NCBI RefSeq assembly: GCF_014643535.1
Contig: NZ_BMJQ01000008.1
Span: 124,001-188,000 of the forward strand
DNA from: Aliidongia dinghuensis
GTDB lineage: Bacteria > Pseudomonadota > Alphaproteobacteria > ATCC43930 > CGMCC-115725
Direction: 5' to 3'
Length of the DNA stretch: 64,000 nucleotides
The notes beneath the pieces are model-generated. The model did not search any database and was not told the origin of the DNA. It saw nothing but the letters and a program-made list of their open reading frames with translations. The position numbers and the translations under genes are program-made. Shown here piece by piece: positions 5,595 to 27,638 of the stretch (positions are counted from its first letter, which is position 1; each line of letters starts with the position of its first letter).

Positions 5595-5661
5595 TACAGA
5601 CAAAAGACAAAATTGAATTATTTTGAGGAAGGCCTCCGTGCCTCGATAGGTGAGATCTGAG

Positions 5662-6629: not shown

Positions 6630-7373
6630 CTACGTCACTTGAAATGTTTGCCGCCCAGCCGACCGGCCTTTGTTGAAATCAACCCCCTCACGTATATAAG
6701 TCATTAGTAAAGCCCGGCGCGAGCGATCGGCTGTAGTGTTGTCGTTGGACTCATGAATAATCTGGCCGTGTAGAAAAATTACAGAGCCGCGGCGTGCCGG
6801 AACGCAGACTGGGGAGATTTGATTTGGAATGGCGCACGCCAGACGATTTGCGTCCGGATCCTGTCCGAAGGTAGAGGTTTGCTCAACTGCGGAGACCTCG
6901 AGCAGTCCGAATTTGTGAGAACCGGGGTAGATATTGAGGCAGCCGTTCGCGAGATCGACGTCGTCCAAGGCGAGCCACGCCGAGGCAAAGGCGCCTAAAG
7001 GGGCTTGCACATAGAAGTTGTCTTGGTGAGGAGTAAATCCCTTCGTGCCCGGCCGCCCGAAGAAAAACTCCGTCTGCAAGCCCATCGGACGGCCGCCCAC
7101 TAAGCGCGCAATAATCTGGACCAGACGGGGTTTCTGGGCGGCCTGGCAAAAAATCGGGACCATGCGATGAGGGTTCATCGTCGGGAGCAGGCTGCCATTC
7201 TTGGCGTTGTCGAAGTCCCGGCTTGCGGCAACGAGCGCGTCGACCTCTGCAACATCGAAGACATCGGGCTCGACGAAGAAGCCTTGTTCGTCGAACTCCT
7301 GCTCGGCCGCGTTGGCGTTGGCAGCAAAAGTAAACCGAGAGGCTGGCGCTATCATGTTGGCGGATCCGTTCAT
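6630..7373 (-). CDS. Phytanoyl-CoA dioxygenase (PhyH) family protein
   Basis: 247 aa Fe(II)/2-oxoglutarate oxygenase. The iron triad is present: H116 and D118 in TPHQDNFY and the distal H207 in GQIIHESN, with R220 positioned to bind 2-oxoglutarate. Start 7373 (MNGSANMIAP) is preferred because it stays clear of the FkbM gene ending at 7414; Met at 7355 is possible. It is cotranscribed with that FkbM gene, 40 bases apart. PhyH enzymes in glycan and natural-product clusters hydroxylate small molecules or carrier-bound acyl groups; the substrate is unknown. Confidence 0.8.
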   Translation of the reverse strand: MNGSANMIAPASRFTFAANANAAEQEFDEQGFFVEPDVFDVAEVDALVAASRDFDNAKNGSLLPTMNPHRMVPIFCQAAQKPRLVQIIARLVGGRPMGLQTEFFFGRPGTKGFTPHQDNFYVQAPLGAFASAWLALDDVDLANGCLNIYPGSHKFGLLEVSAVEQTSTFGQDPDANRLACAIPNQISPVCVPARRGSVIFLHGQIIHESNDNTTADRSRRALLMTYIREGVDFNKGRSAGRQTFQVT

Positions 7374-7413
7374 CCTTATCGAGCAAGCAAATTCCGTAGT
7401 CTTGAGTCGTTCA

Positions 7414-12857: not shown

Positions 12858-13712
12858 TCAGCCGGCTGAGCGAACAGGTTCATCCGCTCGCCTCACAAAG
12901 TCGCCCAGAAGCGCATTCACCCAGTCCGCCGCCGCTAGATGCGGCAGGTGGCCGACCGCGTCCAGCAGATGGATCGGCGCGTCGGTCGGCAGCCATGCTG
13001 GGCCGGGCAGGGGAACGACTTGGTCATCGTGCCCCCAGATGAGCTGTAGCGGACAGGAGATCCGGCGCCAATCGGTTGGCATCACATCCATGGTGCAGCA
13101 CGCGTCGAAGTTCTGCCGCAGGAATTCAGCCATGGCGGCACGAGCCTCCGGCACTGCGATCTTGGCGAGCAACCCGCGGGCAAAGCGCGTCACGTCGATT
13201 GCGGCCCCGCCAAACAGATGTCGCGAGCAGGCGGTCGCCTCGTCCAAGCTCGACACCTCGGAGAGCCGCTTCAGGAACCCGTAGTCGTGCTCCGGCGAGA
13301 TTGCGGCGCATGAGATCAAGGTCAGGCTGCGTGCCTCTATCAGGTCGAGCTCGACGACCCCCAAAGCAAGGCGCCCGCCAAGCGAATGGCCGATGAGATG
13401 CGGCCGGTCGAGGCCCAACGTCCCGATCGCCCGGGCGAGCCAATGGGCCATGTCCCGCCAAGGGCCGATGCCGGGAGCCGCGCTCGACAATCCATGCCCC
13501 GGTAGGTCGATGGCCACGACATGGCGGTCACGGGCGAGCGGGGCGACATTGAACTGCCAGGTTAGCATGTCGCCGGAGAAGCCGTGGACGAGCAGGACGG
13601 GCGGCCGGTCCGGCGAGCCCATGCGAAGCAGGCCGATCTCGGCGCCATCGACCTGGACATACTCTGGCTTCAGGCGGCCGGGCGCGCTGCGAGGCTGTGT
13701 AATCGTGCTCAT
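12858..13712 (-). CDS. Alpha/beta hydrolase
   Basis: 284 aa alpha/beta-fold hydrolase. The oxyanion strand is LLVHGFSGDMLTW, the nucleophile elbow is LIGHSLGGRLA, and a late DAVGHLPHL supplies the catalytic His; LIWGHDDQVVP holds the likely acidic residue. The start at 13712 overlaps the stop of the upstream SDR by four bases (ATGA), which marks it as the last gene of the minus-strand acyl/Rieske operon. A thioesterase or acyl-transfer role on ACP-bound chains would fit, but esterase or lactonase activity is equally possible. Confidence 0.82.
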   Translation of the reverse strand: MSTITQPRSAPGRLKPEYVQVDGAEIGLLRMGSPDRPPVLLVHGFSGDMLTWQFNVAPLARDRHVVAIDLPGHGLSSAAPGIGPWRDMAHWLARAIGTLGLDRPHLIGHSLGGRLALGVVELDLIEARSLTLISCAAISPEHDYGFLKRLSEVSSLDEATACSRHLFGGAAIDVTRFARGLLAKIAVPEARAAMAEFLRQNFDACCTMDVMPTDWRRISCPLQLIWGHDDQVVPLPGPAWLPTDAPIHLLDAVGHLPHLAAADWVNALLGDFVRRADEPVRSAG

Positions 13713-14482
13713 TGCGCCATGAATCCGCCGTCGACCGGGAGGACCGTCCCTGTGATCCAGCGCGCGGCGTCGGACAGCAGGAACGAGACGGCATGCGCCA
13801 CGTCTCCAGGCATGCCGATCCCGAGCGGATGAGCGGCGGCGAGGGCGGCATTCTGCTCGGCCGATAGCATTGAGAAATGCTTCTTCGCCTGTGCCCCCTT
13901 GACGATTGCGGGGGCCACGCAATTGGCGCGGATGCCGAGGTCGGCGAGCTCAAGAGCGACCGAGCGCGTCACGGCAACGAGCGCCGCCTTGGACGCGGCA
14001 TAGAGCGTCCGGCCCTTCTGCCCGCGCAAGCCCGCAACCGAGCCGATATAGACGATCGAGGCGCCCGGAGCGGCGACGCCTCTCTGCCGGAGCGCACGTG
14101 CCAGCAGGATCGCGGCCCCGACATTGATCGAGAAATAGCGGTCGAACTCGGCGGCGCCGATCTTGCTCAAGGGCGAATAGCCTTGGTGGGAGGCGCTATG
14201 GACGATGCCGCCGAGCGGGCCGCCGCTTTCGGCGATCTGCCTGACCCAGGCCGGAATGCCATCGAGCTCGGTGAGATCATAAGGCGCAACGAGATGCTGC
14301 TCCGCGGCCGGGAGCAGTGCTTTGGTCGCTTCGAGCGCCTCGACCCGCCGGCCGGCCAGGACGAGCCGCGCGCCGTTCCGGGCGAGCTCGCTCGCGATCC
14401 CACGGCCGATGTCGCTGTCGACCGAGGCGCCGGTGACGAGGATGCGCCGGTCGGCGAGCGCGCAGGGCGAGGGGGGTGACAA
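13709..14482 (-). CDS. SDR family oxidoreductase (FabG-like)
   Basis: 257 aa classical SDR. The cofactor motif is VTGASVDSDIGRGIA, with three more residues between glycines than usual (an enoyl-reductase-like TGxxxxxxxGxG spacing). The active site has IVYIGSVAG (Ser) and YAASK (YxxxK), and the end is GTVLPVDGGFMA. It lies 3 bases downstream of KAS III and overlaps the hydrolase. Position in a KAS III/ACP operon suggests ketoreduction or enoyl reduction of an acyl-ACP. A paralogous SDR sits at the other end of the operon (19590-20366). Confidence 0.82.
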   Translation of the reverse strand: MSPPSPCALADRRILVTGASVDSDIGRGIASELARNGARLVLAGRRVEALEATKALLPAAEQHLVAPYDLTELDGIPAWVRQIAESGGPLGGIVHSASHQGYSPLSKIGAAEFDRYFSINVGAAILLARALRQRGVAAPGASIVYIGSVAGLRGQKGRTLYAASKAALVAVTRSVALELADLGIRANCVAPAIVKGAQAKKHFSMLSAEQNAALAAAHPLGIGMPGDVAHAVSFLLSDAARWITGTVLPVDGGFMAQ

Positions 14483-14485
14483 GGC

Positions 14486-15559
14486 TTAGAGCGCCAGCCG
14501 CGGGAAATCTTCCGGCACTTCGATCACGCCCGGCGTCACGATCGGCCCGATGTCGAGGACCATGCCGCCCCAGGACCAGCCGACGCCGAAGCCGCCGAGG
14601 AGCAGCTTCGGGCGCCGCGTCGCAACCGGCTCGGACAGCGAATGGCAGATCGCCAGCGGGATCGAGGCGGAGCTTGTGTTGCCGAAGCTCTCCATGTCGA
14701 TGATGAATTTCCCGGGCGGGATCTTGGTCTTGTTGCGCAGATGCTCGAGGATGAACTTGTTCGCCTGGTGCATGACGCAATAGTCGATCGCGTCGAGGTC
14801 GCAGCCGGCGTGGTCGAGGATGTCGCGCACCAGCGCCGGCACGATGCGGAGCGTGAAGGTGAAGATCTCCGGCCCATTCAGATGCAGATGCGCGTCCTCG
14901 TAAAGCGTGCCGGCCTCGCCGCCGCGCAGCACCGGCACCAGGTTGTGCCGAAGGCCGCCGGCTTTGATCGAGATATGCTCGGCGCCACGCGCATCGGTGC
15001 CGACGGTCACATGGATGGGCGCGGCCTCGTCCGACCGCTCGAGCGCCGTGGCGGCGCCGGCATCGCCGAAGAGCGGGCGAGTCGAGCGATCGCCTGGCAG
15101 CAGCAGGCGCGAGCTCACGTCCCCGCAGAGCAGCAGGGCTCGCCGTCCCTGCGACCCTGCGAGCAATTGCGAGACGAGCCACAGGCCATAGACGTAGCCG
15201 GAGCAACCGAGGTTGACGTCGAATGCAGCACAGCTCGTCGGTAAGCCCAGGCGCTTCTGCATCAGGCAAGCGGTCGCCGGCAGCAGATAGTCCGGACCCT
15301 GCGTCACGAACACGATCGCGTCGATCGTCGACGGATCCCAGTCGAGGTCGGCCAGGAGGCGCTCCGCCGCTGCGACCGCAAGGTCCGACGCCAGCATATT
15401 GGGCGGCGCGATCCGCCGCTCCCGGACGCCGATCGAGGTCGCGAGTTTCCGCGCCTCTTCCGGCGAAAACATTTCCGGCGTTTCGACGAAGGAATGACGC
15501 TGCGTCGGCACCGCGGCATGGAGCCCAGCAATCCGGACGCCATTGATCGTCGCTTTCAT
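14486..15559 (-). CDS. 3-oxoacyl-ACP synthase III family protein (KAS III)
   Basis: 357 aa thiolase-fold enzyme. The KAS III triad is complete: C119 (VNLGCSGYVYG), H264 (VMHQANKFI) and N294 (SFGNTSSAS), with a GFGVGWSWG C-terminal loop. KAS III condenses an acyl-CoA starter with malonyl-ACP; homologues in secondary pathways also transfer acyl groups. It is about 30 aa longer than housekeeping FabH. It is separated by 100 bases from the upstream FkbM gene, the only gap in this operon. A second, divergent KAS III is at 20810-21820. Confidence 0.87.
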   Translation of the reverse strand: MKATINGVRIAGLHAAVPTQRHSFVETPEMFSPEEARKLATSIGVRERRIAPPNMLASDLAVAAAERLLADLDWDPSTIDAIVFVTQGPDYLLPATACLMQKRLGLPTSCAAFDVNLGCSGYVYGLWLVSQLLAGSQGRRALLLCGDVSSRLLLPGDRSTRPLFGDAGAATALERSDEAAPIHVTVGTDARGAEHISIKAGGLRHNLVPVLRGGEAGTLYEDAHLHLNGPEIFTFTLRIVPALVRDILDHAGCDLDAIDYCVMHQANKFILEHLRNKTKIPPGKFIIDMESFGNTSSASIPLAICHSLSEPVATRRPKLLLGGFGVGWSWGGMVLDIGPIVTPGVIEVPEDFPRLAL

Positions 15560-15659: not shown

Positions 15660-16829
15660 CTACGGGCGCGCGCCCTGATGGCAATAGAGGTTCGTGTCGT
15701 AGAGCCACGGCGTGAATTGCCGCAACGACAGTTTGTAGCCAGGGGCGATCGACGCGATCTGTGCCGGAAGGTCGAAAAGATCATCGGTCTGGTGGTAGGC
15801 CGATATGCAGAGGCCCGGCCGATTCCGGGAGATCTGGCTCGCGCCGCCGCTCAGCGCCGAAGCCTCTGAGCCCTCGACATCGAGCTTGATCGCGGTCACG
15901 GGGCGGTCGACGACTTGATCGATCGCGGTCACTTCGATCGCGATATCGCCCCCCTCGCTCACATAGCTGCCCTGGTCGTTGCCGGCGGCGAAACGCAGGG
16001 TCCGGCGGTCGGAATACAATCCTTGGCGGAAGCGCTGGATACCCGGCAGATGCTTTGTCCGTTCCTCGAGCAGCGCGAAATTCGCCTCGTCGGGCTCGAA
16101 AGCATAGATCTGGTCATAGGCGGGGCCGAACTTCTCGATGAATTTGACGACGGTGTCGCCGTCATAAGCACCGCCGTCGACATAGACATGGGTCGTGGTC
16201 GGCCTGAGCCAGGCAGGCTCGCCGGCAGCGGCGCTCGCCAAGTGGGCGGCCTCTAGATAGCGTCGCTCGCCAGTCAATCGGAACAGCAGCACGCTATAGA
16301 ACACGCCGCGACTGAGCTCGTCGTCGAGCGCACCGGCGAAGCTTTGCCACCGGTCGCGCCGCCCCCAGGCCGACTCGACCAGCCGATCGTAGAACTTTGC
16401 CTGTACGGCCGGATAGGCGAAGCCCGCGCGTCGAAAGGCATGGATCAGGCCCAGCCATTCGATGTGCCAGGCGTCGCAATAAGCGCCGAAATGAGCGGCA
16501 GCGCCCTTGCTTTCGACCATCATCGCGGCGAGAAGGCGCGGGTGCTGTTGCTTGAGATCGGCAAGCGCGCTTTCGGCCACGATATCGAAAGGACCGAGCT
16601 TCTTGCCGGCCGCGTTGTTATCGCAGATCGCGATGATCTCGAGTGCACCAGCTTGCGCGACGAAGGCACGAGCATAAGGTGTTGCACCGATCAGCACGAG
16701 CGGGCGGTCGCCCAGGTCGAGTGCGGCGACGCGATCGTCTTCGAACAACCGGAAGGTGGGATTGGCCGAGCGCTCCCAGCGCTCGGCTAGTCGATCGAGC
16801 GCGCGCCGCAGGGCATCATTGTCCAGCAT
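15660..16829 (-). CDS. FkbM family methyltransferase with N-terminal Rossmann-like region
   Basis: 389 aa. The C-terminal half is an FkbM methyltransferase (VYVDGGAYDGDTVVKF near residue 215; TAIKLDVEGSEASALSGG near 315). The N-terminal 200 residues contain a second nucleotide-binding-like fold (LVLIGATPYARAFV, EIIAICDNN), an arrangement found in proteins that join a sugar-metabolism or PglD-like N-terminus to FkbM. It overlaps the end of the acetyltransferase gene by 14 bases. Predicted O-methyltransferase acting on a glycan or acyl substituent. Confidence 0.82.
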   Translation of the reverse strand: MLDNDALRRALDRLAERWERSANPTFRLFEDDRVAALDLGDRPLVLIGATPYARAFVAQAGALEIIAICDNNAAGKKLGPFDIVAESALADLKQQHPRLLAAMMVESKGAAAHFGAYCDAWHIEWLGLIHAFRRAGFAYPAVQAKFYDRLVESAWGRRDRWQSFAGALDDELSRGVFYSVLLFRLTGERRYLEAAHLASAAAGEPAWLRPTTTHVYVDGGAYDGDTVVKFIEKFGPAYDQIYAFEPDEANFALLEERTKHLPGIQRFRQGLYSDRRTLRFAAGNDQGSYVSEGGDIAIEVTAIDQVVDRPVTAIKLDVEGSEASALSGGASQISRNRPGLCISAYHQTDDLFDLPAQIASIAPGYKLSLRQFTPWLYDTNLYCHQGARP

Positions 16830-17388
16830 GATCGTCCTCGTTCGGAAAGGCAGAAAGCGTCTTCTCCCGCGGGAACAGCCGAGGCCTCGTCTCCCATTCG
16901 GCGCGCGTCAGTTCGAACATGTGCAGATCGTGGAACTGGCCGTACTTGAAGACATGTTCCTTGAGCACCCCGACCTCTCGCACACCCATCAGGCGCTTGG
17001 CTTTCACGAAATTCACATTTCCGCTCATGATCGTGAAAATCGCCTTGTTCAGGTCGAGGCGATAGAAGCAATAGTCGAGGATGAAGGAATTGGTATAGGC
17101 GGCCAGATGCCGTTCATGCGGCTCGAGGATGAGATAAGTTCCGGGCACGCAATGGCGATTGACGCGGTCGATCTCGGAATAGGACAGGTGGCCGACGGGC
17201 ATGCCGTGGCGCAGCACGATGAAATGCTCATAGTCGCTGCGATGCGCGACTGCGGCGAGCCACCGCTTCTGCCTTTCGAGATCATAATCGATGTCGGTCA
17301 GCATGTAGCGCGTGATGTCGGGTTGCGTCCGCCAGTCCAGCAGCAGCTTCGCGTCCTCGATCGTCGGGCGGCGGAAGGTGAAGGGCAT
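16816..17388 (-). CDS. pseH: GNAT acetyltransferase, PseH-like
   Basis: 190 aa. The protein starts FTFRRPTIEDAKLLLDWRTQP and continues with ITRYMLTD, a pattern seen in PseH-type N-acetyltransferases, and has the GNAT core (VGHLSYSEIDRVN, a GTYLILEPHERHLA acetyl-CoA region, NVNFVKAKRLMG). PseH acetylates the 4-amino group of the UDP-altrosamine intermediate of pseudaminic acid. The start at 17388 overlaps the Rieske stop by one base. PseG, PseI and a PseF-like gene at 23512-26463 support this, although the acyl donor might be a longer acyl-ACP or acyl-CoA made by this operon rather than acetyl-CoA. Confidence 0.68.
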   Translation of the reverse strand: MPFTFRRPTIEDAKLLLDWRTQPDITRYMLTDIDYDLERQKRWLAAVAHRSDYEHFIVLRHGMPVGHLSYSEIDRVNRHCVPGTYLILEPHERHLAAYTNSFILDYCFYRLDLNKAIFTIMSGNVNFVKAKRLMGVREVGVLKEHVFKYGQFHDLHMFELTRAEWETRPRLFPREKTLSAFPNEDDHAGQ

Positions 17389-18491
17389 CAGATCATCCGG
17401 GCCATGTAGCGATCTTGGAAATGGGCGAGGCGGCGTTCGTTGGCGCCGAGGAGCGCCGGCCCGGCCGCATCGGCGACACCTTCCTGGACGCGTGTCGTGA
17501 CAGCGATGTCTTCCGCGACCACCGCGCTGTTGAACTCCGTCAACGCGTCGACGACCGCCTTTCGCACCGCGGGATTTTGTTCGCCGGTTGAACGCGCGAA
17601 GCGCAGTCGGTAGCGCAGCAAGCATCGACCGGCATCGATCGGCTGATAGGTCTGAAGGCACATCAGGCTGCCGTAGCTGAGTGCAATCAGCAGATTCGGG
17701 AACAGCTGGTAATGGTCGTAGGCCCGGTATCGCTCCAGCCGCTGCAGCTTCAGGCGGCGGACGACGCGTTCCCACCAGGCGATATTGTCCCCCGACATGG
17801 CGAGGCGCCCATAGGAATGCTCGCCCAGGCACTCGCCCTGGAATACGGGGGCGTTTGGTGTCACTTTCGCAAAGGTCGTCGGATGCACGAGGCCCGCATG
17901 ATAGACCTCGATGGCGCTCTCGACCGCCAGCTTCCAATTGGCGGTCCAGACGATCGAGCAATCTGCAATCGAGTCGGTAAAGGTTTCCGACAGTTCGGCG
18001 ACCGCGTCCGCGTACGCTCCAAGCGCGGCGTTAAGGCTCTCGCCGTCGGCGGCGATGCGGGCGAAGACAAAGCGGCCGCATCGTTCGACAGCGATCGGCT
18101 TCAATGCCAGGGCTTCGCGTGCATTCCGGTCGATCTGGAAGGCTTCGGCGTTGGCCGGGATGCCGACGGGAACCCCGGCCTCGTTGTATGTCCAGCCATG
18201 ATACGAGCAGCGCAGCAAGCCGTTGCCGCATGCTGCGGCGCGCAGGCGCGCATGGCGGTGCGAACAGACGTTGTGGAAGCCACGCAGACGCCCGTCGAAG
18301 TTCTGGATGACGATATTTTGTCGGCCGATCGTCGCCGTCACGAAATCGTTGGGATTTTCTAGCTCGTCGGTGAAGCCGACGAACTGCCAGTTACGTTCGA
18401 AGATGCGGCTCTGTTCCTCGGTCAGGATATCCGCCGACCGATAGAACGTGGGCGGAATGCGCGCCAGGGTGTAGAGCGTGCTTTCGGTCAT
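17388..18491 (-). CDS. Rieske non-heme iron oxygenase alpha subunit, copy 1
   Basis: 367 aa. Rieske cluster ligands C76, H78 (NVCSHRHARL), C95 and H98 (LLRCSYHGW). The mononuclear iron site has the two His of EVYHAGLVH and a late Asp in AEDIAVTTRVQEG, so the catalytic triad looks intact. The start at 18491 overlaps the stop of copy 2 by four bases. It clearly shares long stretches with copy 2 (CSHRHARLR, CGNGLLRC, GVPVGIP). No ferredoxin or reductase is encoded nearby, so electrons must come from elsewhere. The substrate is unknown; hydroxylation or desaturation of an acyl or sugar group is inferred. Confidence 0.87.
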   Translation of the reverse strand: MTESTLYTLARIPPTFYRSADILTEEQSRIFERNWQFVGFTDELENPNDFVTATIGRQNIVIQNFDGRLRGFHNVCSHRHARLRAAACGNGLLRCSYHGWTYNEAGVPVGIPANAEAFQIDRNAREALALKPIAVERCGRFVFARIAADGESLNAALGAYADAVAELSETFTDSIADCSIVWTANWKLAVESAIEVYHAGLVHPTTFAKVTPNAPVFQGECLGEHSYGRLAMSGDNIAWWERVVRRLKLQRLERYRAYDHYQLFPNLLIALSYGSLMCLQTYQPIDAGRCLLRYRLRFARSTGEQNPAVRKAVVDALTEFNSAVVAEDIAVTTRVQEGVADAAGPALLGANERRLAHFQDRYMARMI

Positions 18492-19585
18492 CGGCCCTCC
18501 ATCGCGGCACGCCACGCTTCATGGAACGCCGCGATCCGGTCCTCGTTTTGGCCGAGGCGGGCAGGGCGTTCGGCCAAGTGCTTGCCGTGCTGGACCTCTT
18601 CCGAGATCCGCTGATCCTCGCCCAGCACTCGGTCGTTGAACTCGACAAGGCTGCGCTCGATCGCGCGGCCGGTGACGGACTGGCGCTGCTCCGGCTTGCT
18701 CGACGGACCGGCCGCCATCCAGAACTTGAGCCGCGTCACCTCGGGGCCGGTCGGCTCGTAGACCTGCAGGCTCAGGAACGTGCCGGCGCTCGCGATCACC
18801 ATCATGTTCGGGAACAGGAAGAAGTGGTCGTAGCCGGTGAAGCGCTCGGTCGTGGCAAGGCCGAGGCGTGTCGCCATGCGCCGCATCGAGGCGCGTGCCT
18901 CGTCCGCGAGATCAGTCGGGCCGAAGGAATGGGGACCCGCGAATTCGCTCGGCCTGACCGTGCCGGTCATCGGGCGGAACGAGTGCGGGTGGATCATGTC
19001 CAGGTGATAGCCCTCGAGTGCGCTCTCGACGCCGATCTTCCAATTCGCGGCCCACGTGACCGCCGCGCGTTGGAACGGCCGGCCGAGCGTCGTCGAGAGA
19101 TGGGCGAGCGGCTCCGCATAGGCGCCGAGGACCGTCGCCAGATCGGGGCCATCGGCAGTGAGACGGGCGAAGACCAGGTCGCCGCAGCAGGCAACCGCGA
19201 CCGGGCGCAGCGCCAACGCCTGCCGGCCCTCGCGGTCGAGCCCGAAATAGTCGGCGTTGCCGGGGATGCCGACCGGCACGCCGTCGCCATTGTAGGTCCA
19301 GCCGTGATAGGGGCAGCGCAACAACCCGTTGCCGCACTCGGCCTGGCGCAGGCGCGCGTGGCGGTGCGAGCAGACATTGACGAAGCCGCGCAGCGCGCCG
19401 TCGAAATTCTGCACCAGGATGCTGCGGCCGGCGAGGTCGGCCACGACGAAGTCCTGGTGTTGGGCGAGTTCCTGGCGCAATGCCACGAGCTGCCAGCTGG
19501 GCTCGAAGATCCGCTGACGCTCGGCGGCCGAGACCTCCAGCGAGAAATAGGTCGACGGCGCCAGCGCCTCGGTCATCGGCTCCAT
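18488..19585 (-). CDS. Rieske non-heme iron oxygenase alpha subunit, copy 2
   Basis: 365 aa. Rieske ligands C72, H74, C91 and H94 (VCSHRHARLR, RCPYHGW). Iron-site residues lie in EGYHLDMIH and in LGEDQRISEEVQHG. It is a tandem paralogue of copy 1 and is cotranscribed with it. The start is 19585 (MEPM) or 19576 (MTEAL); both lie just after the SDR stop at 19590. Conserved motifs in both copies argue that each is active, either in successive oxidations or as a mixed oligomer. Confidence 0.87.
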   Translation of the reverse strand: MEPMTEALAPSTYFSLEVSAAERQRIFEPSWQLVALRQELAQHQDFVVADLAGRSILVQNFDGALRGFVNVCSHRHARLRQAECGNGLLRCPYHGWTYNGDGVPVGIPGNADYFGLDREGRQALALRPVAVACCGDLVFARLTADGPDLATVLGAYAEPLAHLSTTLGRPFQRAAVTWAANWKIGVESALEGYHLDMIHPHSFRPMTGTVRPSEFAGPHSFGPTDLADEARASMRRMATRLGLATTERFTGYDHFFLFPNMMVIASAGTFLSLQVYEPTGPEVTRLKFWMAAGPSSKPEQRQSVTGRAIERSLVEFNDRVLGEDQRISEEVQHGKHLAERPARLGQNEDRIAAFHEAWRAAMEGR

Positions 19586-19589
19586 CGTC

Positions 19590-20366
19590 CTAGCCGGCGA
19601 GCAGGCCGCCGTCGAGCAGCAGGCTCGTCCCGGTCATCCAGCGCGCGGTGTCGGCGATCAGGAAGGCGATGGCGTTGGCGACATCCTCGGGCCGGCCGAT
19701 GCCCATGGGATAATGCTGCAGATATTCTTCGAACTGCGCCTCGCTCATGGTCGAGCGGAAGCGGTCGGCCATTTCCGTGTCGACCAAGGCCGGGCAGACG
19801 CAATTGACGCGGATCCGGTCGCGCGCGAGCTCGACGGCAAGCGCGCGGGCGGCCGAGACGACAGCGCCCTTGGTCGCGCAGTAGACAACATTGCCCGCCT
19901 GACCGACGAAGGCCGAGGCAGAGGCGACGAACACGATCCCGGCGCCCTCGACGGCCGAGCCGCGCTGGCGGAAGGCGCGGGCGAGCGCCAGGCCGCTCGC
20001 GATATTGATGCGGAACATGTCGCTCATGAAGGCGGCGTCGGCGTTGCGGATCGGCTTCGACACCTGCACGCCAGCGCAATGGGCGAGACCCGAGAGCGGT
20101 CCGCCCACCTGGGCGCAGTCTCGAAGCCAGGCCGGGATCTCGTCGATGGCACCCAGATCGAACGGGGCCGCGCGATGGCCGTCGCCGGCCATGATCTCGA
20201 CCGTCTGCTGCAGGCGGTCGGCGTCGCGCCCGGTCAGCGTTACCCGCGCGCCGAGCCGGGACAAGAGCACCGCCGTCGCCCGGCCAATGCCGGACGAGGC
20301 GCCCGTCACCAGGACATGACGGCCGCTCAGATCCATTGGATTGACGACCGGCATTGCGGAACTCAT
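19590..20366 (-). CDS. SDR family oxidoreductase (FabG-like)
   Basis: 258 aa classical SDR. It has the motif VTGASSGIGRAT, a canonical TGxxxGxG, an IVFVASASAF strand with the active Ser, the catalytic YCATK (YxxxK), and the C-terminal LLLDGGLLAG. It closely resembles 3-oxoacyl-ACP reductases, and it lies 17 bases downstream of the ACP gene, so reduction of a 3-oxoacyl chain on that ACP is the simplest reading. The start at 20366 is favoured over Met codons at 20354 and 20336, but no strong ribosome site supports any of them. Confidence 0.83.
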   Translation of the reverse strand: MSSAMPVVNPMDLSGRHVLVTGASSGIGRATAVLLSRLGARVTLTGRDADRLQQTVEIMAGDGHRAAPFDLGAIDEIPAWLRDCAQVGGPLSGLAHCAGVQVSKPIRNADAAFMSDMFRINIASGLALARAFRQRGSAVEGAGIVFVASASAFVGQAGNVVYCATKGAVVSAARALAVELARDRIRVNCVCPALVDTEMADRFRSTMSEAQFEEYLQHYPMGIGRPEDVANAIAFLIADTARWMTGTSLLLDGGLLAG

Positions 20367-20383
20367 GACGGAGGGAAGGTCAC

Positions 20384-20629
20384 TCAGGCCTCTAGCTGGA
20401 CGCTCAGCAACGCCAGAAGATCGGCGACGCTCTTTGCCTCGGCGAGCTTCTCGCCTTCGAGGATCACGCCGAACTGCTCGTCCACGAGCGCGATGAAGCT
20501 GATCACCGCTAGGCTGTCCCACTCGGGGATGTCGCTCAGCTGTTCGTTCCCCTGGAGCGTGCCTTCCGGCAGATCGAGGGTATTGTCCAGGAGTGTGAGG
20601 AAATCGGAGGTTTTCATGAGTTCGCTCAT
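20384..20629 (-). CDS. Acyl carrier protein
   Basis: 81 aa, acidic and helical. The phosphopantetheine site is S39 in the motif IPEWDSLAVISF, and spacing to both ends fits the four-helix ACP fold. First gene of the minus-strand operon that continues with SDR, two Rieske oxygenases, PseH-like GNAT, FkbM, KAS III, SDR and hydrolase. It is not the housekeeping ACP: its sequence around the serine (WDSLA) is of the type seen in dedicated secondary-metabolism or glycan-acylation ACPs. It needs a phosphopantetheinyl transferase encoded elsewhere. Confidence 0.87.
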   Translation of the reverse strand: MSELMKTSDFLTLLDNTLDLPEGTLQGNEQLSDIPEWDSLAVISFIALVDEQFGVILEGEKLAEAKSVADLLALLSVQLEA

Positions 20630-20762: not shown

Positions 20763-20809
20763 AACTCCCTGACAGGATGCGATTATCGTTTCGCAGGGAC
20801 CCCGTCGTG

Positions 20810-21820
20810 ATGCAAGTCGGCATTGCCGCCATTTCCTACCATCTTCCGGAGACCGTGCTGGACAACGCCAGCCTGGCCGCCGCCAATCCGCGCTTCCAGC
20901 CGGAGAAGGTGAAGGCCAAGACCGGCATCGACCGGCGCCATGTCGCGGCCCCGGACGAGACGGCGGTCGATCTGGCGGTGGCGGCGGGCGAGCGCCTTTT
21001 CACCGAATCGGGCATCGACCGTACGAGCGTCGACCATCTGATCTTTTGCACGCAGGCGCCCGACTATTTCCTGCCGACCAGTGCTTGCGTCGTCCATGGC
21101 CGGCTCGGCCTGCCCGCCGAAGCAGGGGCGGTCGACATCAACCTCGGCTGTTCGGGCTTCGTCTACGGGTTGGGCCTGGCCTCCGGCCTCATTCACTCCG
21201 GCCAGGCAAGCCGCGTCCTGCTGCTGACGGCCGATACCTATTCCAAATTCATCGATGTCGAGGACCTGAGCGTCCGTTCGATCTTCGGCGACGGGTCGGC
21301 GGCGACGCTTGTCGAGGCCGGGGGCGGCAGCATCGGGCCCTTCGTCTACGGCACCGATGGCAAGGGGGCCGAGCACCTGATCGTCCCGACCGGCGGCTTG
21401 CGCGCGCCGGTCGACGAAGCCTCGCCAGATGACGGCTATATCATCCATGGCGGTCGTCGGCGCGCGGGGCGGCCGCTGCATATGAACGGGCCCGAGGTGT
21501 TCAATTTCTCGATCGCGGCCGTGCCGGCGGCGGTGCGTGCCCTGTTGCACAAGGCTGCGCTCACCATGGCGGACGTCGACCTGTTCGTGTTCCATCAGGC
21601 CAACACGACCATGCTCGAGGCGCTTCGGCGCAAGCTCGAAATCCCGGTCGAGCGGTTCTTCGTCGATCTCGCCGATGCCGGCAATACGGTCTCTTCGACC
21701 ATTCCGATCGCGCTGCGTCGCGCGGCGAGCCAGGGCCGGCTGCAGGCCGGGGACCGGGTCATGCTGGTTGGTTTCGGTGTCGGCTATTCCTGGGCTGCCA
21801 CGTTGCTGACCTGGTGCTAG
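20810..21820 (+). CDS. 3-oxoacyl-ACP synthase III family protein (KAS III), second copy
   Basis: 336 aa. Triad C114 (INLGCSGFVYG), H262 (VFHQANTTM) and N292 (DAGNTVSST) is complete, with the VGFGVGYSWA C-terminal loop. ATG 20810 is chosen because AGGGA precedes it; ATG 20777 would add 11 residues. It is clearly a paralogue of the KAS III at 14486-15559 (both have the PDYFLPT/PDYLLPA and LGCSG segments) yet much diverged, so the two may take different starters or do different jobs. It heads a plus-strand unit leading to EAL, pseG, pseI and the cytidylyltransferase. Confidence 0.87.
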   Translation: MQVGIAAISYHLPETVLDNASLAAANPRFQPEKVKAKTGIDRRHVAAPDETAVDLAVAAGERLFTESGIDRTSVDHLIFCTQAPDYFLPTSACVVHGRLGLPAEAGAVDINLGCSGFVYGLGLASGLIHSGQASRVLLLTADTYSKFIDVEDLSVRSIFGDGSAATLVEAGGGSIGPFVYGTDGKGAEHLIVPTGGLRAPVDEASPDDGYIIHGGRRRAGRPLHMNGPEVFNFSIAAVPAAVRALLHKAALTMADVDLFVFHQANTTMLEALRRKLEIPVERFFVDLADAGNTVSSTIPIALRRAASQGRLQAGDRVMLVGFGVGYSWAATLLTWC

Positions 21821-21925
21821 CCCGATGACCTTCCCGAAATGGCGGCGCCGGCTTCGCCCCGGCCAATATCGTGTTGTGCGCGACGGGCGTTCGCTCCGAT
21901 CCTTCGGATCCGCGGTGTCTCCAGC

Positions 21926-23515
21926 ATGCTGAAACCCAGCCTGATGCGGTCGCCGGAAGGGCTGATCGTCCTTCTGGCAGCCTTGCTGCCGCTCGTGGTG
22001 ATCGCTGGCTTGTGCTGGCGGACAGCCAATCTGGAGCTCGAGCGGCAACTGGACGCCGCGGCGGATACGGCCGTGGCCGACGCCGACCGGTTGATCGGCG
22101 ACATCGTCACCGGGCTGCACGAGCGCGAGGGGCTGGTCGGCACCGACTGCACGCCCGCGACGATCGAGCAGCTCGACCATCTCACCTACGAATCGCCCCT
22201 CGTCCGCTCGGCCGGACTGTTCGACGGGAAGGGGCAGCTCTATTGCACCAGTCGGGGGGCCTTCCGCGCCGACATCAGCACGGCAGCGGGCTCGACCCGA
22301 CGCGGCGGTCTCGTCATGCGCGTCGGCCGCGCCATCGTCACGAATCGCACCTCGCTCATCGTCCAGCTCCGGCGCGACGACGAAGCGGGCATCGGCGCCG
22401 TCGCCGATCTGGCACTGTTCGACCAGCTGGCGACACCCTTGTCGTTCGAGGGCGCAGGCGCGGTCAGCGTCGTGCTGGGCGAGGCGACGCCGCTGCGCAC
22501 TGCCGGCCGGCCGATCGAAAGCATGGCGAAACACCCGTTCTGCGTCAGCCGGCGCTCGCACAAGTTCGACGTCGCGGCGACCGTGACGGTGCCGCGGGCA
22601 ATGGTCTGGTCGCTGTTCCGGCGCGAGCTGGCGCTGTTCGGGGCGGCCGGTGTGATGCTGTCGGCAATGTTGGCTTGGCTCGCACTCCGCGGCATCGCCA
22701 ATCGGCAATCGCTCACGCGCGGCCTGCGCGCGGCGCTCCGCCGGCGCCAGTTCGAAGTGCATTACCATCCGGTCATCGACATCCAGAACGACCGCTGCGT
22801 CGGCGCCGAGGCACTCATCCGCTGGCGCCATCCCGACCGGGGGCTGATCCGCCCGGACCTGTTCATCCCGGTCGCCGAGGAAACCGGGCTCATCATCCCG
22901 ATCACCCGCTGGCTGATGAACCGGGTCCGCGACGACTTCGAGGGTGTCGACCTGCCGCGCGACTTCCACATCGCGATCAATCTGGCGCCGGTCCAGTTCA
23001 AGGACCGCACGATCGTCGACGACATCCGCGCCATCTTCAGCGGGCGCAACCTGTCCCCGGCCATGCTCGTGCTCGAGGCGACCGAACGGTTCCCGATCGA
23101 CGACGCCGGCCGCAAGGTGATCGACGCGCTCCGCACCATGGGGCCGGGCATTGCGCTCGACGATTTCGGCACGGGCCACAGCGGGCTCGCTTACCTGCAG
23201 AAGTTCCACGGCGACTATCTCAAGATCGACAAGACCTTCGTGCAGACGATCGGCACCGACGCCGTGACGCGCACCGTGGTCGATTCGATCATCAACCTCG
23301 CGCGCGAGCTCGACATGGAGATCATCGCCGAGGGCGTCGAGACCGTGACGCAGCTCAAATACCTGCGCCAGCGCGGCGTGCCCTACGCCCAGGGCTTCCT
23401 GTTTGCGCAGCCGCTGCCCTTCGCCGAATTCGAGAACTTTCGGCGGACGCATCCGAGCCCTTGTGCGCATCATCTGAAGGCGGAGGAGGCCCCGCGCGAA
23501 GAGGTGCCGGCTTGA
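21926..23515 (+). CDS. EAL-domain c-di-GMP phosphodiesterase with CSS motif
   Basis: 529 aa. Transmembrane segments at about residues 13-31 and 232-252 enclose a periplasmic sensor with cysteines C75, C107 and C206 and the CSS-type LYCTS. The cytoplasmic EAL domain (about 260-515) keeps the main catalytic signatures: GAEALIRW, NLAPVQFK, LEATER, DDFGTGHSG, LKIDKTF and AEGVET. It should degrade c-di-GMP in response to periplasmic redox or a ligand. The start is uncertain: a longer frame begins at 21839. It overlaps pseG by TTGA, unusual company for a signalling enzyme, and c-di-GMP controls motility. Confidence 0.85.
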   Translation: MLKPSLMRSPEGLIVLLAALLPLVVIAGLCWRTANLELERQLDAAADTAVADADRLIGDIVTGLHEREGLVGTDCTPATIEQLDHLTYESPLVRSAGLFDGKGQLYCTSRGAFRADISTAAGSTRRGGLVMRVGRAIVTNRTSLIVQLRRDDEAGIGAVADLALFDQLATPLSFEGAGAVSVVLGEATPLRTAGRPIESMAKHPFCVSRRSHKFDVAATVTVPRAMVWSLFRRELALFGAAGVMLSAMLAWLALRGIANRQSLTRGLRAALRRRQFEVHYHPVIDIQNDRCVGAEALIRWRHPDRGLIRPDLFIPVAEETGLIIPITRWLMNRVRDDFEGVDLPRDFHIAINLAPVQFKDRTIVDDIRAIFSGRNLSPAMLVLEATERFPIDDAGRKVIDALRTMGPGIALDDFGTGHSGLAYLQKFHGDYLKIDKTFVQTIGTDAVTRTVVDSIINLARELDMEIIAEGVETVTQLKYLRQRGVPYAQGFLFAQPLPFAEFENFRRTHPSPCAHHLKAEEAPREEVPA

Positions 23516-24567
23516 GCCCCAAGATCTTGCAACCGTTGATCCTGTTTCGCGCCGATGCCACGCCGGCCATGGGCACTGGGCACGTCATGCGCTGCCTGGC
23601 GCTCGCCGAGGCCTTGCGCGACCGCGCGATCGATGTCGCGTTCGTCGCGGCGGCGCTGACGCCGTCGATTGCCCACCGGCTCGCGGCCGAGCGCATCGAC
23701 GTGCATCCCGCCGGGGACCCTGACGACGCCGCGGCGACAATAGCGCTCGGCCGCACGCTCGGTGCCAACGCGCTGGTCGTCGATGGCTATCATTTCAGCG
23801 CCGCGTGGCGCCAGGCGGTCCGGTCGCTGGGCGTGCCCATCCTTGCGTTCCAGGATCTGGACGACGGCGCGCCGCTCCACGCCGACCTGGTGCTGAACGC
23901 GGCCGCCCGGCCCGAAGAGACGAAATGGCGCCGGGCGGCGCCGGCCGCAACCTTCCTCACGGGGCCGCGGTACGTGCTGCTGCGCCGCGAGCTGCGCCGG
24001 GCCGTGGCGGCGCCAAAGCGACCGGTCGCCGCCCGCTCGGCGCTGCTCGTCACCTTCGGCGGCGCCGATCCCACTGGCCTTACCCTGCCGGTGACAGCGG
24101 CGCTTGCAGGCGTACTGGGGCCGGAGGCGACCCTCGACGTGGTGATCGGCGGCAGCGTGCCGAACGGCGCTGGGCTCGTCGACCGCGTCGCCGCGCTCGA
24201 CCCGCGGGTTTCGGTCCATCTCGACCCGATCGAGATGGCGCCGCTCATGGGTCGGGCCGGTCTTGCGGTCTCCGCTGCCGGCGGCACGATCGGCGAGCTT
24301 GCGGCGCTGGGCGTGCCGGCGCTGATCGCGATCGTCGCGGAAAACCAGGTGGCAGGCGCTGCCGCCTCGGCCGCTGCCGGCTGGTGCGAAGCCGTCGACG
24401 CCCGCGCATCCGGCGCCGTCGCGACCCTGGCGGCGCGCGCCGCCGCCCTCTGGGCCGATGCGCCATTGCGCCAGGCGATGGCGGACCGGACCGCCGGGCT
24501 CATCGATGCCGGCGGGGTCGACCGGGTTGCCGACGCGCTGGTAAGCGCGATGCAAACACTCTGGTAA
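23512..24567 (+). CDS. pseG: UDP-2,4-diacetamido-2,4,6-trideoxy-beta-L-altropyranose hydrolase
   Basis: 351 aa. Start TTG 23512 overlaps the EAL stop and has GAAGAGG about seven bases upstream; no ATG gives a proper N-terminus, because the family signature begins at once (ILFRADATPAMGTGHVMRCLALAEAL, with catalytic-type H24). Two Rossmann-like halves follow (VTFGGADPTG, VSAAGGTIGELAALGVPAL). PseG removes UDP in pseudaminic acid synthesis. Followed by pseI after 76 bases. Confidence 0.85.
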   Translation: MSPKILQPLILFRADATPAMGTGHVMRCLALAEALRDRAIDVAFVAAALTPSIAHRLAAERIDVHPAGDPDDAAATIALGRTLGANALVVDGYHFSAAWRQAVRSLGVPILAFQDLDDGAPLHADLVLNAAARPEETKWRRAAPAATFLTGPRYVLLRRELRRAVAAPKRPVAARSALLVTFGGADPTGLTLPVTAALAGVLGPEATLDVVIGGSVPNGAGLVDRVAALDPRVSVHLDPIEMAPLMGRAGLAVSAAGGTIGELAALGVPALIAIVAENQVAGAAASAAAGWCEAVDARASGAVATLAARAAALWADAPLRQAMADRTAGLIDAGGVDRVADALVSAMQTLW

Positions 24568-24643: not shown

Positions 24644-25720
24644 ATGCCCGTGAGTGACGAAGTCACGATCGCCGGCCGCAAGATCGGTCAGGCTCATCCG
24701 CCCTATGTCATCGCCGAGATGTCGGGCAACCATAACGGCGACATCGCGCGCGCCATGCGGCTCATCGACGCCGCGGCCGAGGCCGGCGCCGACGCGGTCA
24801 AGCTGCAGACCTATACGGCCGACACGATCACCATCGACCATGACGGGCCGGGTTTCCGGCTCGAGGGCGGGCTCTGGGCGGGGCGGACGCTCCATGACCT
24901 CTATCGCGAGGCGCACACGCCCTGGGAATGGCACGCCCCGCTGTTCGAGCATGCGCGCCGGCGCGGCATCGCGATCTTTTCCTCGCCGTTCGATCCGACG
25001 GCGATCGAGCTGCTGGAGAGCCTGGACGCGCCGGCCTACAAGATCGCCTCGTTCGAACTGATCGATCTGCCGCTCATCCAGCGGGCGGCGCGCACCGGCA
25101 AGCCGCTTGTCATGTCGACAGGGCTTGCGACCCTGGGCGAGATCGAGGAGGCGGTCGCGGCCGCGCGCGCTGCTGGCGCCGCCCAGATCCTGCTGTTGCA
25201 TTGCACGAGCGCCTATCCGACGCCGCCGGAAGAGGCGAATCTCCGGACGATCCGGCATATGGCGGACGGCTTCGCCGTGCCGGTCGGCCTGTCCGACCAC
25301 ACGATGGGCATCGCGGTGCCGGTCGCCGCCGTGGCGCTCGGCGCCGTCGCCATCGAGAAGCACTTCACGCTCGCCCGCGCTGACGGCGGCCCCGACTCCG
25401 CTTTCTCACTCGAGGCGTCCGAACTCAAGGACATGGTTGCCGCCTGCCGCACGGCCTGGGCGGCGTTGGGCCAGGTCGACTATGGCGTGAGCCCGGGCGA
25501 GGGGGGTGGGCGCTTCGTGCGCCGCTCGCTCTATGTCGTCGAGGATATTGCCGCGGGCGCGCCGCTCACGGCCAAGAACGTGCGCTCGATCCGGCCGGGC
25601 TTCGGCCTCCTGCCGAAACATCTGCCCGACGTGCTGGGCCGGCCCGCGACACGGGCCCTCAAGCGGGGCGAGCCGCTCGACTGGACCATGGTCGGACCGG
25701 GCACGGAGAGCGGCCGATGA
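24644..25720 (+). CDS. pseI: Pseudaminic acid synthase
   Basis: 358 aa, NeuB family. The TIM-barrel start is YVIAEMSGNHNGDI, then VKLQTYTADT, YKIASFELID, MSTGLAT, GLSDHTMGI and IEKHFTL, all hallmarks of sialic/pseudaminic acid synthases; a C-terminal SAF (antifreeze-like) domain covers about residues 295-355. It condenses phosphoenolpyruvate with the 6-deoxy-diacetamido hexose from PseG. ATG 24644 is chosen with GGGAG just upstream. It overlaps the next gene by ATGA. Confidence 0.88.
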   Translation: MPVSDEVTIAGRKIGQAHPPYVIAEMSGNHNGDIARAMRLIDAAAEAGADAVKLQTYTADTITIDHDGPGFRLEGGLWAGRTLHDLYREAHTPWEWHAPLFEHARRRGIAIFSSPFDPTAIELLESLDAPAYKIASFELIDLPLIQRAARTGKPLVMSTGLATLGEIEEAVAAARAAGAAQILLLHCTSAYPTPPEEANLRTIRHMADGFAVPVGLSDHTMGIAVPVAAVALGAVAIEKHFTLARADGGPDSAFSLEASELKDMVAACRTAWAALGQVDYGVSPGEGGGRFVRRSLYVVEDIAAGAPLTAKNVRSIRPGFGLLPKHLPDVLGRPATRALKRGEPLDWTMVGPGTESGR

Positions 25721-26463
25721 GCACGAAGCTGGCGACGCGGCCGGTTGTCTGCATCACGCAGGCCCGGATCAATTCCTATCGCCTGCCCGCCAAGGTGCTG
25801 CGCCTCATCGCCGGCCAGCCGCTCTTGTGGTGGCATCTCGACCGGCTGAAGCGGGCGCGCCGCGTCGACCGGATCGTGGTCGCGACGACCGGCGAGCCGG
25901 CGGCCGACGCTATCGTCGAGATCGCCGAGGCAGCAGGGGCGGCGGTGTTCCGAGGGTCCGAGCACGACGTGCTCGATCGGTTCGCCGGGGCCGCAGCCCT
26001 CGTGGGGGCCGCGACGATCGTACGCGTGACGTCGGATTGCCCGGTGATCGACCCGGCGCTGATCGACCAGGCCATCGCGCTCTATGAGAGTGCCGGCGAC
26101 GCCTGCCATTACGCGAGCCTCGACGTCAGCACCTTTCCGCGCGGCCTCGATTGCGAGGTATTCAGCCGCCAGGCGCTCGACGAGGCAGCGGCGGAGGCGG
26201 TCTTGCGCGAAGATCGCGAGCACGTGACGCCGTTCATCCGCCGCAACACCGAACGTTACGCGGCGCGCTTCCTGTCGACGGCGCCTCTCGAGCGAACCTA
26301 TCGCTGGTGCGTCGACACGCCGGCAGATTTCGAGCTCGCGCGCCGGATCGTCGAGCAATTCGCCGGGGCCGATTTCGGCTGGACCGATATCGTGGCGCTG
26401 ATGCGGGCGCGGCCGGACTGGGCTGCGCTCAACATGGACGTGGCGCAGACGCCCGTGGCGTGA
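25717..26463 (+). CDS. Cytidylyltransferase family protein, PseF/SpsF-like
   Basis: 248 aa. The N-terminal nucleotidyltransferase motif (ITQARINSYRLPAKVL), VVATTGEP, and VRVTSDCPVIDP are typical of the CTP_transf_3 / SpsF group. Its overlap with pseI and the chain pseG-pseI argue that it activates the nonulosonic acid with CMP. The motif differs from classical PseF/NeuA, whose substrate loop is longer, so the substrate could be a different sugar. Flagellin follows after 215 bases. Confidence 0.78.
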   Translation: MSTKLATRPVVCITQARINSYRLPAKVLRLIAGQPLLWWHLDRLKRARRVDRIVVATTGEPAADAIVEIAEAAGAAVFRGSEHDVLDRFAGAAALVGAATIVRVTSDCPVIDPALIDQAIALYESAGDACHYASLDVSTFPRGLDCEVFSRQALDEAAAEAVLREDREHVTPFIRRNTERYAARFLSTAPLERTYRWCVDTPADFELARRIVEQFAGADFGWTDIVALMRARPDWAALNMDVAQTPVA

Positions 26464-26678
26464 CGCCGTCGAAGGGCGTGTGGAAATTCCCGGGCACAGA
26501 AATTTCAGAAAAAAGCGCGTCGCGTTAACACTCTCGTCAATCTTTTCGGCCATAACGTCTATCAGACGGGCCACGGGTGGGAAAAAATTTCCGATCCGCC
26601 GTCTGAAACCCGACCTCCCCAAATGGGGAAACCGCAGGGCTAAGCCCTCGGCCTCAACATCCTTAAAGGATGACGCAT

Positions 26679-27638
26679 ATGTCTGGCATTACGCTTACCG
26701 CGACTCAAACCGCGACCATTCAGTCCCTGCAGTCTGCCTCGGCGCTGTTCACGACGACGCAGAACGAGCTGAACACCGGCAAGAAGGTGAATTCGGCTTC
26801 GGACGACGCAGTCGCCTATTTCCGGTCCAAGTCGCTCTACGACCGGTCCAGCAACATCCTCACCCGCAAGGCCAACGTCGATCAGTCGATCCAGACGGTC
26901 CAGGCCGCGCTCGATGCGACCTCGGCGGTCGACGGCCTGCTGAAGCAGCTCAAGGGCGTGCTCGAAGGCGCCCGCGGTGCCACGACCTCGTCGCGCGTCT
27001 CGGCGACGGTGCAGTTCAAGAACATCGCCAAGCAGCTGGCGCAGCTGGTCAATGACGCCTCCTACCAGGGCCTCAACCTGCTGACCAAGACCACGGCCAG
27101 CCTCTCTACCCAGTTCTCGGAGCGGACGGCGGCGACGTTCGTCATCAGCGGCTTCTCCTACACCTCGACCGCGGCCGGCAACGCCAACTCGCTGTTCACC
27201 GCGGCGGTCGTGGCGTTCAAGGTAGACGGCACGCTCCTCTTCTCGAACGTCATCGCGTCGACGGCGAATGGCGCCGGCACGATCAAGGGCTTCTCGGCCC
27301 TGAGCCTGACCAGCTCGACGAACTATGGCTCCTTGGTCACGGCGTCGCAGGCGGCGGCGATCTTCACGGCGAGCGACAACCGGATCGATGCGGCGATCAG
27401 CCAGAACAGCGCGCTTACCGCAGCACTCGGTACCAACATCAACATCCTGCAGGCGCGCTCGAACTTCAGCGCCAGCTACTCCGCGACGCTCTCGGGTGGC
27501 GGCGACAAGCTGACGCTGGCCGACCTCAACGTCGAGGCGGCGAACTCCCAGGCGCTGACGCTCCGTCAGCAGATCGGCATCCAGTCGCTGTCGGTCACGG
27601 GTACGCAGAACTCCTCGATCCTGACGCTGCTCCGCTAA
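26679..27638 (+). CDS. Flagellin
   Basis: 319 aa, short flagellin. The D0/D1 N-terminal coiled region (ITLTATQTATIQSLQSASAL, TQNELNTGKKVNSASDDAVA) and C-terminal D0 (LADLNVEAANSQALTLRQQI, then SLSVTGTQNSSILTLLR) are conserved; the central part is Ser/Thr/Ala-rich and would expose residues suited to O-glycosylation. ATG 26679 is chosen over 26670 because AAAGGA sits eight bases upstream. Directly downstream of the nonulosonic acid genes, it is the likely acceptor of the sugar. A strong terminator follows. Confidence 0.92.
   Translation: MSGITLTATQTATIQSLQSASALFTTTQNELNTGKKVNSASDDAVAYFRSKSLYDRSSNILTRKANVDQSIQTVQAALDATSAVDGLLKQLKGVLEGARGATTSSRVSATVQFKNIAKQLAQLVNDASYQGLNLLTKTTASLSTQFSERTAATFVISGFSYTSTAAGNANSLFTAAVVAFKVDGTLLFSNVIASTANGAGTIKGFSALSLTSSTNYGSLVTASQAAAIFTASDNRIDAAISQNSALTAALGTNINILQARSNFSASYSATLSGGGDKLTLADLNVEAANSQALTLRQQIGIQSLSVTGTQNSSILTLLR

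Follow-up and report, generated by a model that had tools for sequence, protein, structure and literature searches.

What do two adjacent, overlapping Rieske oxygenase (RO) genes do in a flagellin-sugar locus, with no redox partner found beside them? The question is raised by a stretch of the Aliidongia dinghuensis genome (assembly GCF_014643535.1, contig NZ_BMJQ01000008.1, positions 124,001 to 188,000). This whole stretch of 64,000 nucleotides is called the window, and coordinates are window positions unless a locus or contig is named. The two genes are:

18488-19585, minus strand: RO1, Rieske non-heme iron oxygenase alpha-type subunit of 365 aa, assigned by Pfam domains and ligand residues
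17388-18491, minus strand: RO2, second alpha-type RO subunit of 367 aa (from its ATG), assigned by Pfam domains, ligands and an AlphaFold2 model

Judged by its gene neighbourhoods, the RO clade belongs to a conserved cassette of beta-ketoacyl synthase III (KASIII), short-chain dehydrogenase (SDR), RO, SDR and PseH-like acyltransferase in pseudaminic-acid/flagellin loci. Our preferred explanation, given slightly under an even chance, is that RO1 and RO2 are co-translated monooxygenase subunits, possibly co-assembling, which draw on electrons from elsewhere to hydroxylate an acyl or sugar group.

By their domains both proteins are ordinary Rieske oxygenases, and RO2 is so by fold as well. The Pfam domains Rieske (PF00355) and Ring_hydroxyl_A (PF00848) scored above cut-off in RO1 and RO2, and the CxH...CxxH Rieske cluster motif and the 2-His-1-carboxylate site were complete in both. 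The Rieske ligands are C72/H74/C91/H94 in RO1 and C76/H78/C95/H98 in RO2. The iron site consists of H194/H199/D324 with bridging E191 in RO1 and of H198/H203/D328 with bridging E195 in RO2, where H198, H203 and D328 were invariant in a 33-row alignment headed by RO2. Stop and start codons of the two genes overlap as ATGA (TCAT on the plus strand at 18488-18491). A preliminary description of this DNA had claimed both the overlap and the retention of Rieske ligands and iron-site residues by the two paralogues; its coordinates, strand and open reading frames (ORFs) were correct and the ligands were found at the positions that it gave. Structure prediction, which it had proposed as a check of both active sites, was run for RO2 and yielded a confident model (pLDDT 95.1, pTM 0.93) with a CntA-like fold, the closest PDB folds being CntA chains (TM 0.75-0.82, E down to 1.2e-24). 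The top PDB sequence match of RO2 was likewise CntA (E 9.8e-26), and that of RO1 was naphthalene dioxygenase 2b1x (4.9e-23), followed by CntA. RO1 and RO2 were identical at 163 of 357 positions (46%, E 2e-110), and this identity was uneven, with 63% (80/127) in the Rieske part and 36.6% (75/205) in the catalytic part.

The likeness to CntA and GbcA, which are alpha3 Rieske oxygenases, extends to the bridging glutamate, which in the alignment of RO2 corresponds to CntA E205 (PMC7948474). However, identity to CntA was only about 22%, and RO1 and RO2 have no linked reductase and lie in a glycan locus. CntA Tyr203, described in PMC7948474 as needed, through a pi-cation interaction, for the quaternary ammonium substrate, corresponds to Ala189 in RO1 and Ala193 in RO2, and the substrate should therefore differ from that of CntA. 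The NCBIfam GbcA model gave 76.8 and 101.1 bits for the RO1/RO2 pair against a cut-off of 670, and together with the replacement of Tyr203 this led us to reject a quaternary-amine oxygenase function of the CntA/GbcA type. RO1 and RO2 also differ from the alpha3beta3 ring-hydroxylating dioxygenases, which have a linked beta subunit.

The scanned window genes between 1 and 28 kb, small ORFs lying outside that scan, included no reductase, ferredoxin or beta subunit. A six-frame search of the host genome (7.37 Mb, 91 contigs) yielded 18 Rieske, 8 NAD_binding_1, 18 Fer2 and 3 beta-subunit (PF00866) matches; the nearest NAD_binding_1 match (C8:227625) and the nearest Fer2 match (C8:228105) lay about 84 kb from RO1 and RO2, and every beta-subunit match was on another contig. 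Both searches thus bear out the earlier claim that no electron partner is encoded nearby. Five of the eight NAD_binding_1 matches were in frame with Fer2 and within about 3 kb of another Rieske match (C6, C7, C8:227k, C10 and C20). Since these Fer2-type reductases sit by other Rieske genes and none by RO1 and RO2, the pair would likely receive its electrons from a reductase that is encoded elsewhere and also serves other ROs. RO reductases are described as moderately promiscuous (PMC12445004). Around the RO genes of four annotated Azospirillum loci no RO reductase or ferredoxin was listed, in a gene table that is incomplete. Outside the glycan cassette, at 39322-40371 (minus strand), the window encodes another Rieske protein, its third, which matches VanA_C weakly.

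The genes of the glycan cassette and of the adjoining nonulosonic acid and flagellin region were assigned as follows:

19590-20366, minus strand: SDR1, short-chain dehydrogenase directly upstream of RO1 (start assigned within ORF 19590-20522)
16816-17391, minus strand: PseH-like GNAT N-acyltransferase directly downstream of RO2 (TIGR03585, 66.4 bits, below the cut-off of 93.1)
15660-16829, minus strand: FkbM-family methyltransferase
14486-15559, minus strand: KS2, KASIII-like beta-ketoacyl synthase, 59-62% identical to the RO-adjacent KASIII of Azospirillum loci
13709-14482, minus strand: SDR2, FabG-like dehydrogenase, up to 67% identical to Azospirillum
12858-13715, minus strand: alpha/beta hydrolase (scanned as the longer ORF 12858-13922)
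20777-21820, plus strand: KS1, second KASIII-like synthase, divergent from the RO operon
23515-24567, plus strand: PseG (TIGR03590, 194.4 bits, above the cut-off of 153.55)
24647-25720, plus strand: PseI-like nonulosonic acid synthase (general domains only, NeuB and SAF; 72% identical to the A. brasilense gene)
25717-26463, plus strand: PseF-like cytidylyltransferase (general domain only; 50% identical to the A. brasilense gene)
26670-27638, plus strand: flagellin

An EAL-domain protein with a CSS motif is encoded between KS1 and PseG (21839-23515, plus strand). In the same sugar region, a PhyH-family protein, an iron oxygenase of a different type, is encoded beside an FkbM methyltransferase gene (6630-7460, minus strand).

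The same gene set recurred around related oxygenases. Plasmid p3 of A. brasilense Sp7 has a single RO in the order pseG-SDR-KASIII-RO-SDR-GNAT...pseI-pseF...hydrolase-ACP-ligase-SDR-KASIII-flagellin (gene names as annotated, pseF by sequence match; ACP, acyl carrier protein), and Acetobacter lambici has SDR-RO-GNAT-KASIII-SDR together with PseF, PseI and PseG matches. SDR genes occupied the matching place upstream of the RO in many relatives. Of 46 fetched RO loci, 36 had KASIII and 43 had one or more of the cassette genes. Among the 80 matches listed, a KASIII relative was found in seven of the eight clade loci and at none of the 72 other Rieske loci; the clade locus lacking it (L021) has PseI. 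The limit of this eight-locus set was drawn after the neighbourhoods had been seen, and when the clade was restricted to loci of at least 39% identity the counts were 4/5 and 3/75. The contig scan covered 80 of the Rieske loci, so that the clade list is a lower bound. In three Azospirillum plasmid loci (L017, L019 and L020, at about 12.7-15.1 kb) a gene annotated as sialidase family precedes the full-length RO. In Paraburkholderia monticola two full-length ROs in divergent orientation lie close to KASIII, SDR and FkbM matches (L027:5528-11131), possibly an independent two-oxygenase cassette.

RO matches at E <= 1e-60 were obtained in 6 of 385 sampled genomes of the class, and at 1e-50 in 4 of 398 of the phylum, the own genome being counted in both. 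A full-length RO was present in 61 of 82 genomes of the Azospirillum family (the family of G091), and the clade in 43 of 45 genomes of genus g63. This genus was taken as Azospirillum, matches in G806, G784 and G815 lying at nearly the same positions as on plasmids of A. ramasamyi, A. brasilense and Azospirillum sp. TSH58. The genome of the same genus as the host, G001, keeps PseI, PseF, PseG, KS1, KS2, SDR1 and GNAT at 61-88% identity and the hydrolase at 41-56%, but its locus (L112) holds one RO, 32% identical to RO2. On this comparison the oxygenase seems to be a component of the cassette that can be swapped.

Two known systems come close to the cassette. For the viosamine island of Pseudomonas syringae it is proposed that VioS (KASIII), VioR (SDR), an ACP and VioB together produce an N-(3-hydroxybutanoyl-type) sugar (PMC3927599). 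This island, with VioM, resembles the present cassette in combining KASIII, SDR, acyltransferase and methyltransferase for a proposed N-(3-hydroxyacyl) flagellin sugar; it differs in that Table 1 of that paper has no oxygenase among seven ORFs, and in that the sugar is viosamine and not of the Pse type. The CMP-Neu5Ac hydroxylase CMAH, a Rieske-domain enzyme, acts on a nonulosonic acid by hydroxylating its N-acetyl group (PMC8227644), whereas RO1 and RO2 have a Ring_hydroxyl_A catalytic domain. The substrate, activity, assembly, order of steps and electron donor of RO1 and RO2 are inferred. KS2 and SDR2 would make a short 3-hydroxyacyl thioester, as proposed for VioS and VioR, and the ROs, supplied by the shared unlinked reductase, would add oxygen to the acyl chain, either free or already bound to the sugar. 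SDR1 might then re-oxidise or set the new hydroxyl group, the GNAT protein would load the acyl group on the amino sugar and the FkbM enzyme would O-methylate the product.

The relatives bear on the question whether RO1 and RO2 act together. In some of them the oxygenase is split, one ORF having the Rieske cluster only and its neighbour the iron site only. The Rieske-only ORFs comprised 161-217 aa (n=11), with the Rieske motif and without the iron-site motif; the catalytic-only ORFs comprised 292-338 aa (n=11), with D..H....H and the C-terminal D and without the Rieske motif. Pfam agreed, since three of three first halves matched Rieske without Ring_hydroxyl_A and three of three second halves the reverse; the other matches of the halves were to VanA_C and, in a few cases below cut-off, to unrelated families. 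Examples of split pairs are:

L169:14216-15852
L171:4506-6130
L157:7321-8675
L113:11910-13503

In a profile search, catalytic-only genes were found in 30 of 82 genomes of the Azospirillum family (15/45 in g63, 7/7 in g471 and 8/11 in g167) and in 2 of 39 genomes of the window's own family (G003 and G012). With one locus counted per genome (n=32), a Rieske-only gene stood beside the catalytic-only gene in 30, the two were fused in one (G842) and the contig ended in one (G849). G834 was dropped from an initial 31 genomes, its match being the weakest (5.8e-46, the next being 7.2e-107) and overlapping its own full-length RO. Two matches labelled catalytic-only (L206 8371-8994 and L208 3-719) were excluded as full-length ROs truncated by the end of the stretch; the L194 match labelled full is the fusion, a second copy in G812 (C2) lies outside the locus set, L186 is a frame-shifted full-length RO and L180 duplicates L023. 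Where the stretch shows the flanks, the gene order in the Azospirillum family was SDR, Rieske-only, catalytic-only, GNAT. Overlap of stop and start codons was seen in 8 of the 11 split pairs for which we assigned starts, and in L167 and L173 about 1.3 kb separates the halves. In L167 an ORF resembling, by sequence reading, a TnpB-type transposon protein lies between them (4883-6007), and both halves are still open.

Both split halves are under purifying selection, with dN/dS values of 0.15-0.35 for the catalytic-only and 0.14-0.48 for the Rieske-only genes (nine comparisons each) and of 0.12-0.25 for full-length ROs from the same loci, indicating that the Rieske-only genes are less constrained; the set comprised ten Azospirillum-family loci and its comparisons are not independent. 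Sequencing error, fission of one gene and pseudogenes were judged unlikely as origins of the split pair, given its occurrence in four genera, the open frames, a segment shared by both halves and the dN/dS values. Because both halves keep this shared segment, two gene copies seem to have degenerated to give the pair. The natural fusion in G842 (L194:5450-6793, minus strand) has a Rieske domain followed by a catalytic domain, with an apparent remnant of a second RO N-terminus between them. In its model, residues 126-422 aligned with residues 8-348 of a CntA chain (260 residues, Z 20.4, rmsd 3.2). Since the second part of the fusion thus aligns with most of a CntA chain, the catalytic half seems, from the model, to keep a reduced, cluster-less domain at the place of the former Rieske domain.

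In ROs the Rieske centre is described as feeding the iron of the next subunit, over about 12 A across subunits against more than 40 A within one (PMC12445004, PMC7948474). Because electrons pass between subunits, complementary loss would be tolerable only with assembly, and judging from the sequences the split pair should work only as a hetero-oligomer. The Rieske-only protein may instead be a dedicated electron carrier that docks only in passing. A related arrangement is NdmC, which has no Rieske cluster and is supplied with electrons by the Rieske domain of NdmD (PMC10380055); the separate Rieske piece of the split pairs differs in resembling a degraded oxygenase subunit, not a reductase domain, and RO1 and RO2 differ from NdmC in both being complete. 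NdmA and NdmB are paralogous ROs that form alpha3alpha'3 (PMC12445004).

RO1 and RO2 occupy the same slot between SDR and GNAT genes as the split pairs and overlap likewise, yet are whole, neither having lost its iron site or its Rieske ligands. In the catalytic tree RO1 grouped with the A. lambici RO (99/98) and RO2 stood beside the Azospirillum full-length ROs, while the catalytic-only genes formed their own clade (94/87; 100 in another tree). The approximately unbiased (AU) test, with groupings chosen after the data had been seen, rejected RO1 and RO2 as sisters for the catalytic part (p 0.0002) but not for the Rieske part (p 0.43), for which RO1 with the Rieske-only genes (0.32) and RO2 with the Rieske-only genes (0.31) were not rejected either. 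The Rieske tree left RO1, RO2 and the Rieske-only genes unresolved, and the A. lambici RO did not join RO1. The Rieske-only genes formed one clade in a quick tree (88) but not in the careful tree, which does not support a single origin of the split. Near-duplicates were omitted from the trees, and far outgroups and some long branches (among them L112 and L149) also from the careful ones. A recent tandem duplication of the whole gene was thus rejected by the catalytic tree but not by the Rieske tree, the quick version of which joins RO1 and RO2 (94). Such a discrepancy would be consistent with gene conversion in the Rieske halves; identity of the two genes at third positions peaked at 62.5% at residues 81-120 and reached 60% also at 161-200. 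That the Rieske-only gene goes back to RO1 and the catalytic-only gene to RO2 was unsupported, given the AU values and the slightly higher score of RO2 with both split profiles (164.8 against 148.2 and 178.4 against 164.8 bits).

Given that electrons in ROs pass from one subunit to the next, and that relatives carry a split pair in this slot, RO1 and RO2 possibly co-assemble, by analogy, as alpha and alpha' in the manner of NdmA and NdmB, and not as two homotrimers. The split pairs in the SDR-GNAT slot, the one natural fusion and the ATGA overlap speak for this. Several observations weigh against the preferred explanation. RO1 and RO2 each keep every ligand, so that each could work alone. The A. 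lambici RO, nearest to RO1 in its catalytic part, is the sole RO in its 21 kb stretch, and since it stands alone an RO1-like oxygenase may need no RO2. From the trees, the split pair was not shown to descend from a tandem like RO1 and RO2, and the AU test of the catalytic part rejected RO1 (0.002) and, marginally, RO2 (0.044) as partner of the catalytic-only genes. In the window's own family (G003 and G012) the halves are convergent, not co-directional. As to the cassette itself, 3 of the 46 RO loci show no cassette gene, and a search of the window with the Azospirillum ACP found no ACP.

The preliminary description had proposed sequential oxidations by two active paralogues of one glycan operon, that is, RO1 and RO2 as separate homotrimeric monooxygenases which oxidise one acyl or sugar group twice in succession. 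We regard this as nearly as likely as the preferred explanation, with a probability short of even. It is supported in part, both genes being intact, translationally coupled and set in a glycan operon, with no local electron partner found. Catalytic parts less alike than the Rieske parts would be expected of enzymes with different substrates and one electron donor, and the tree gives the catalytic parts different ancestry. Sequential action is somewhat favoured in that two iron sites are seen in genome after genome: among the 61 Azospirillum-family genomes with a full-length RO, 30 hold a split oxygenase as well, not always in the same stretch. A fixed two-step pathway has against it that the other 31 showed no second oxygenase and that the G001 locus has one RO. 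The split pairs in the same slot point, moreover, to partners that assemble. The stronger form of co-assembly, in which the tandem ROs of the cassette are obligate hetero-oligomers, one subunit serving mainly through its Rieske cluster and the other mainly through its iron site, appears rather doubtful.

It is unlikely that the product of the cassette goes to a different surface polymer or to a lipid, with the flagellin gene a mere neighbour, a view that could be combined with any of the others. Some Azospirillum copies do lie among glycosyltransferase genes in stretches with no annotated flagellin gene. However, flagellin is encoded beside the PseF-like gene both in the window and on A. brasilense p3, and a flagellin gene is also present in L112, L151, L160, L162 and L163. 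The presence of KS1 and KS2 and of SDR1 and SDR2 might suggest two modules in which each RO serves a different acyl unit, but this is improbable, as the A. brasilense locus has two KASIII and three SDR genes with one RO, and RO1 and RO2 are coupled to each other beside a single PseH-like GNAT gene.

Among the open-licence PMC papers searched none was found that links Rieske oxygenases to flagellin or pseudaminic-acid glycans, the setting of RO1 and RO2, widespread as the clade is in Azospirillum. Nor did the titles and opening lines of abstracts among the open-licence PMC matches listed include a naturally split Rieske oxygenase. The split relative is the more novel result, and it gives RO1 and RO2 a testable mechanism; the split pair is also a natural test of electron passage between RO subunits. 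The cassette predicts an oxidised acyl or sugar group on the glycan that would be directly detectable by mass spectrometry. If the tandem oxygenases were obligate hetero-oligomers, Azospirillum and its kin would have the complete division, a naturally split RO, and RO1 and RO2 would be a two-subunit arrangement without loss of domains. To the RO family this would add a new architecture, and to the making of flagellin sugars an oxidative step that is likewise new.

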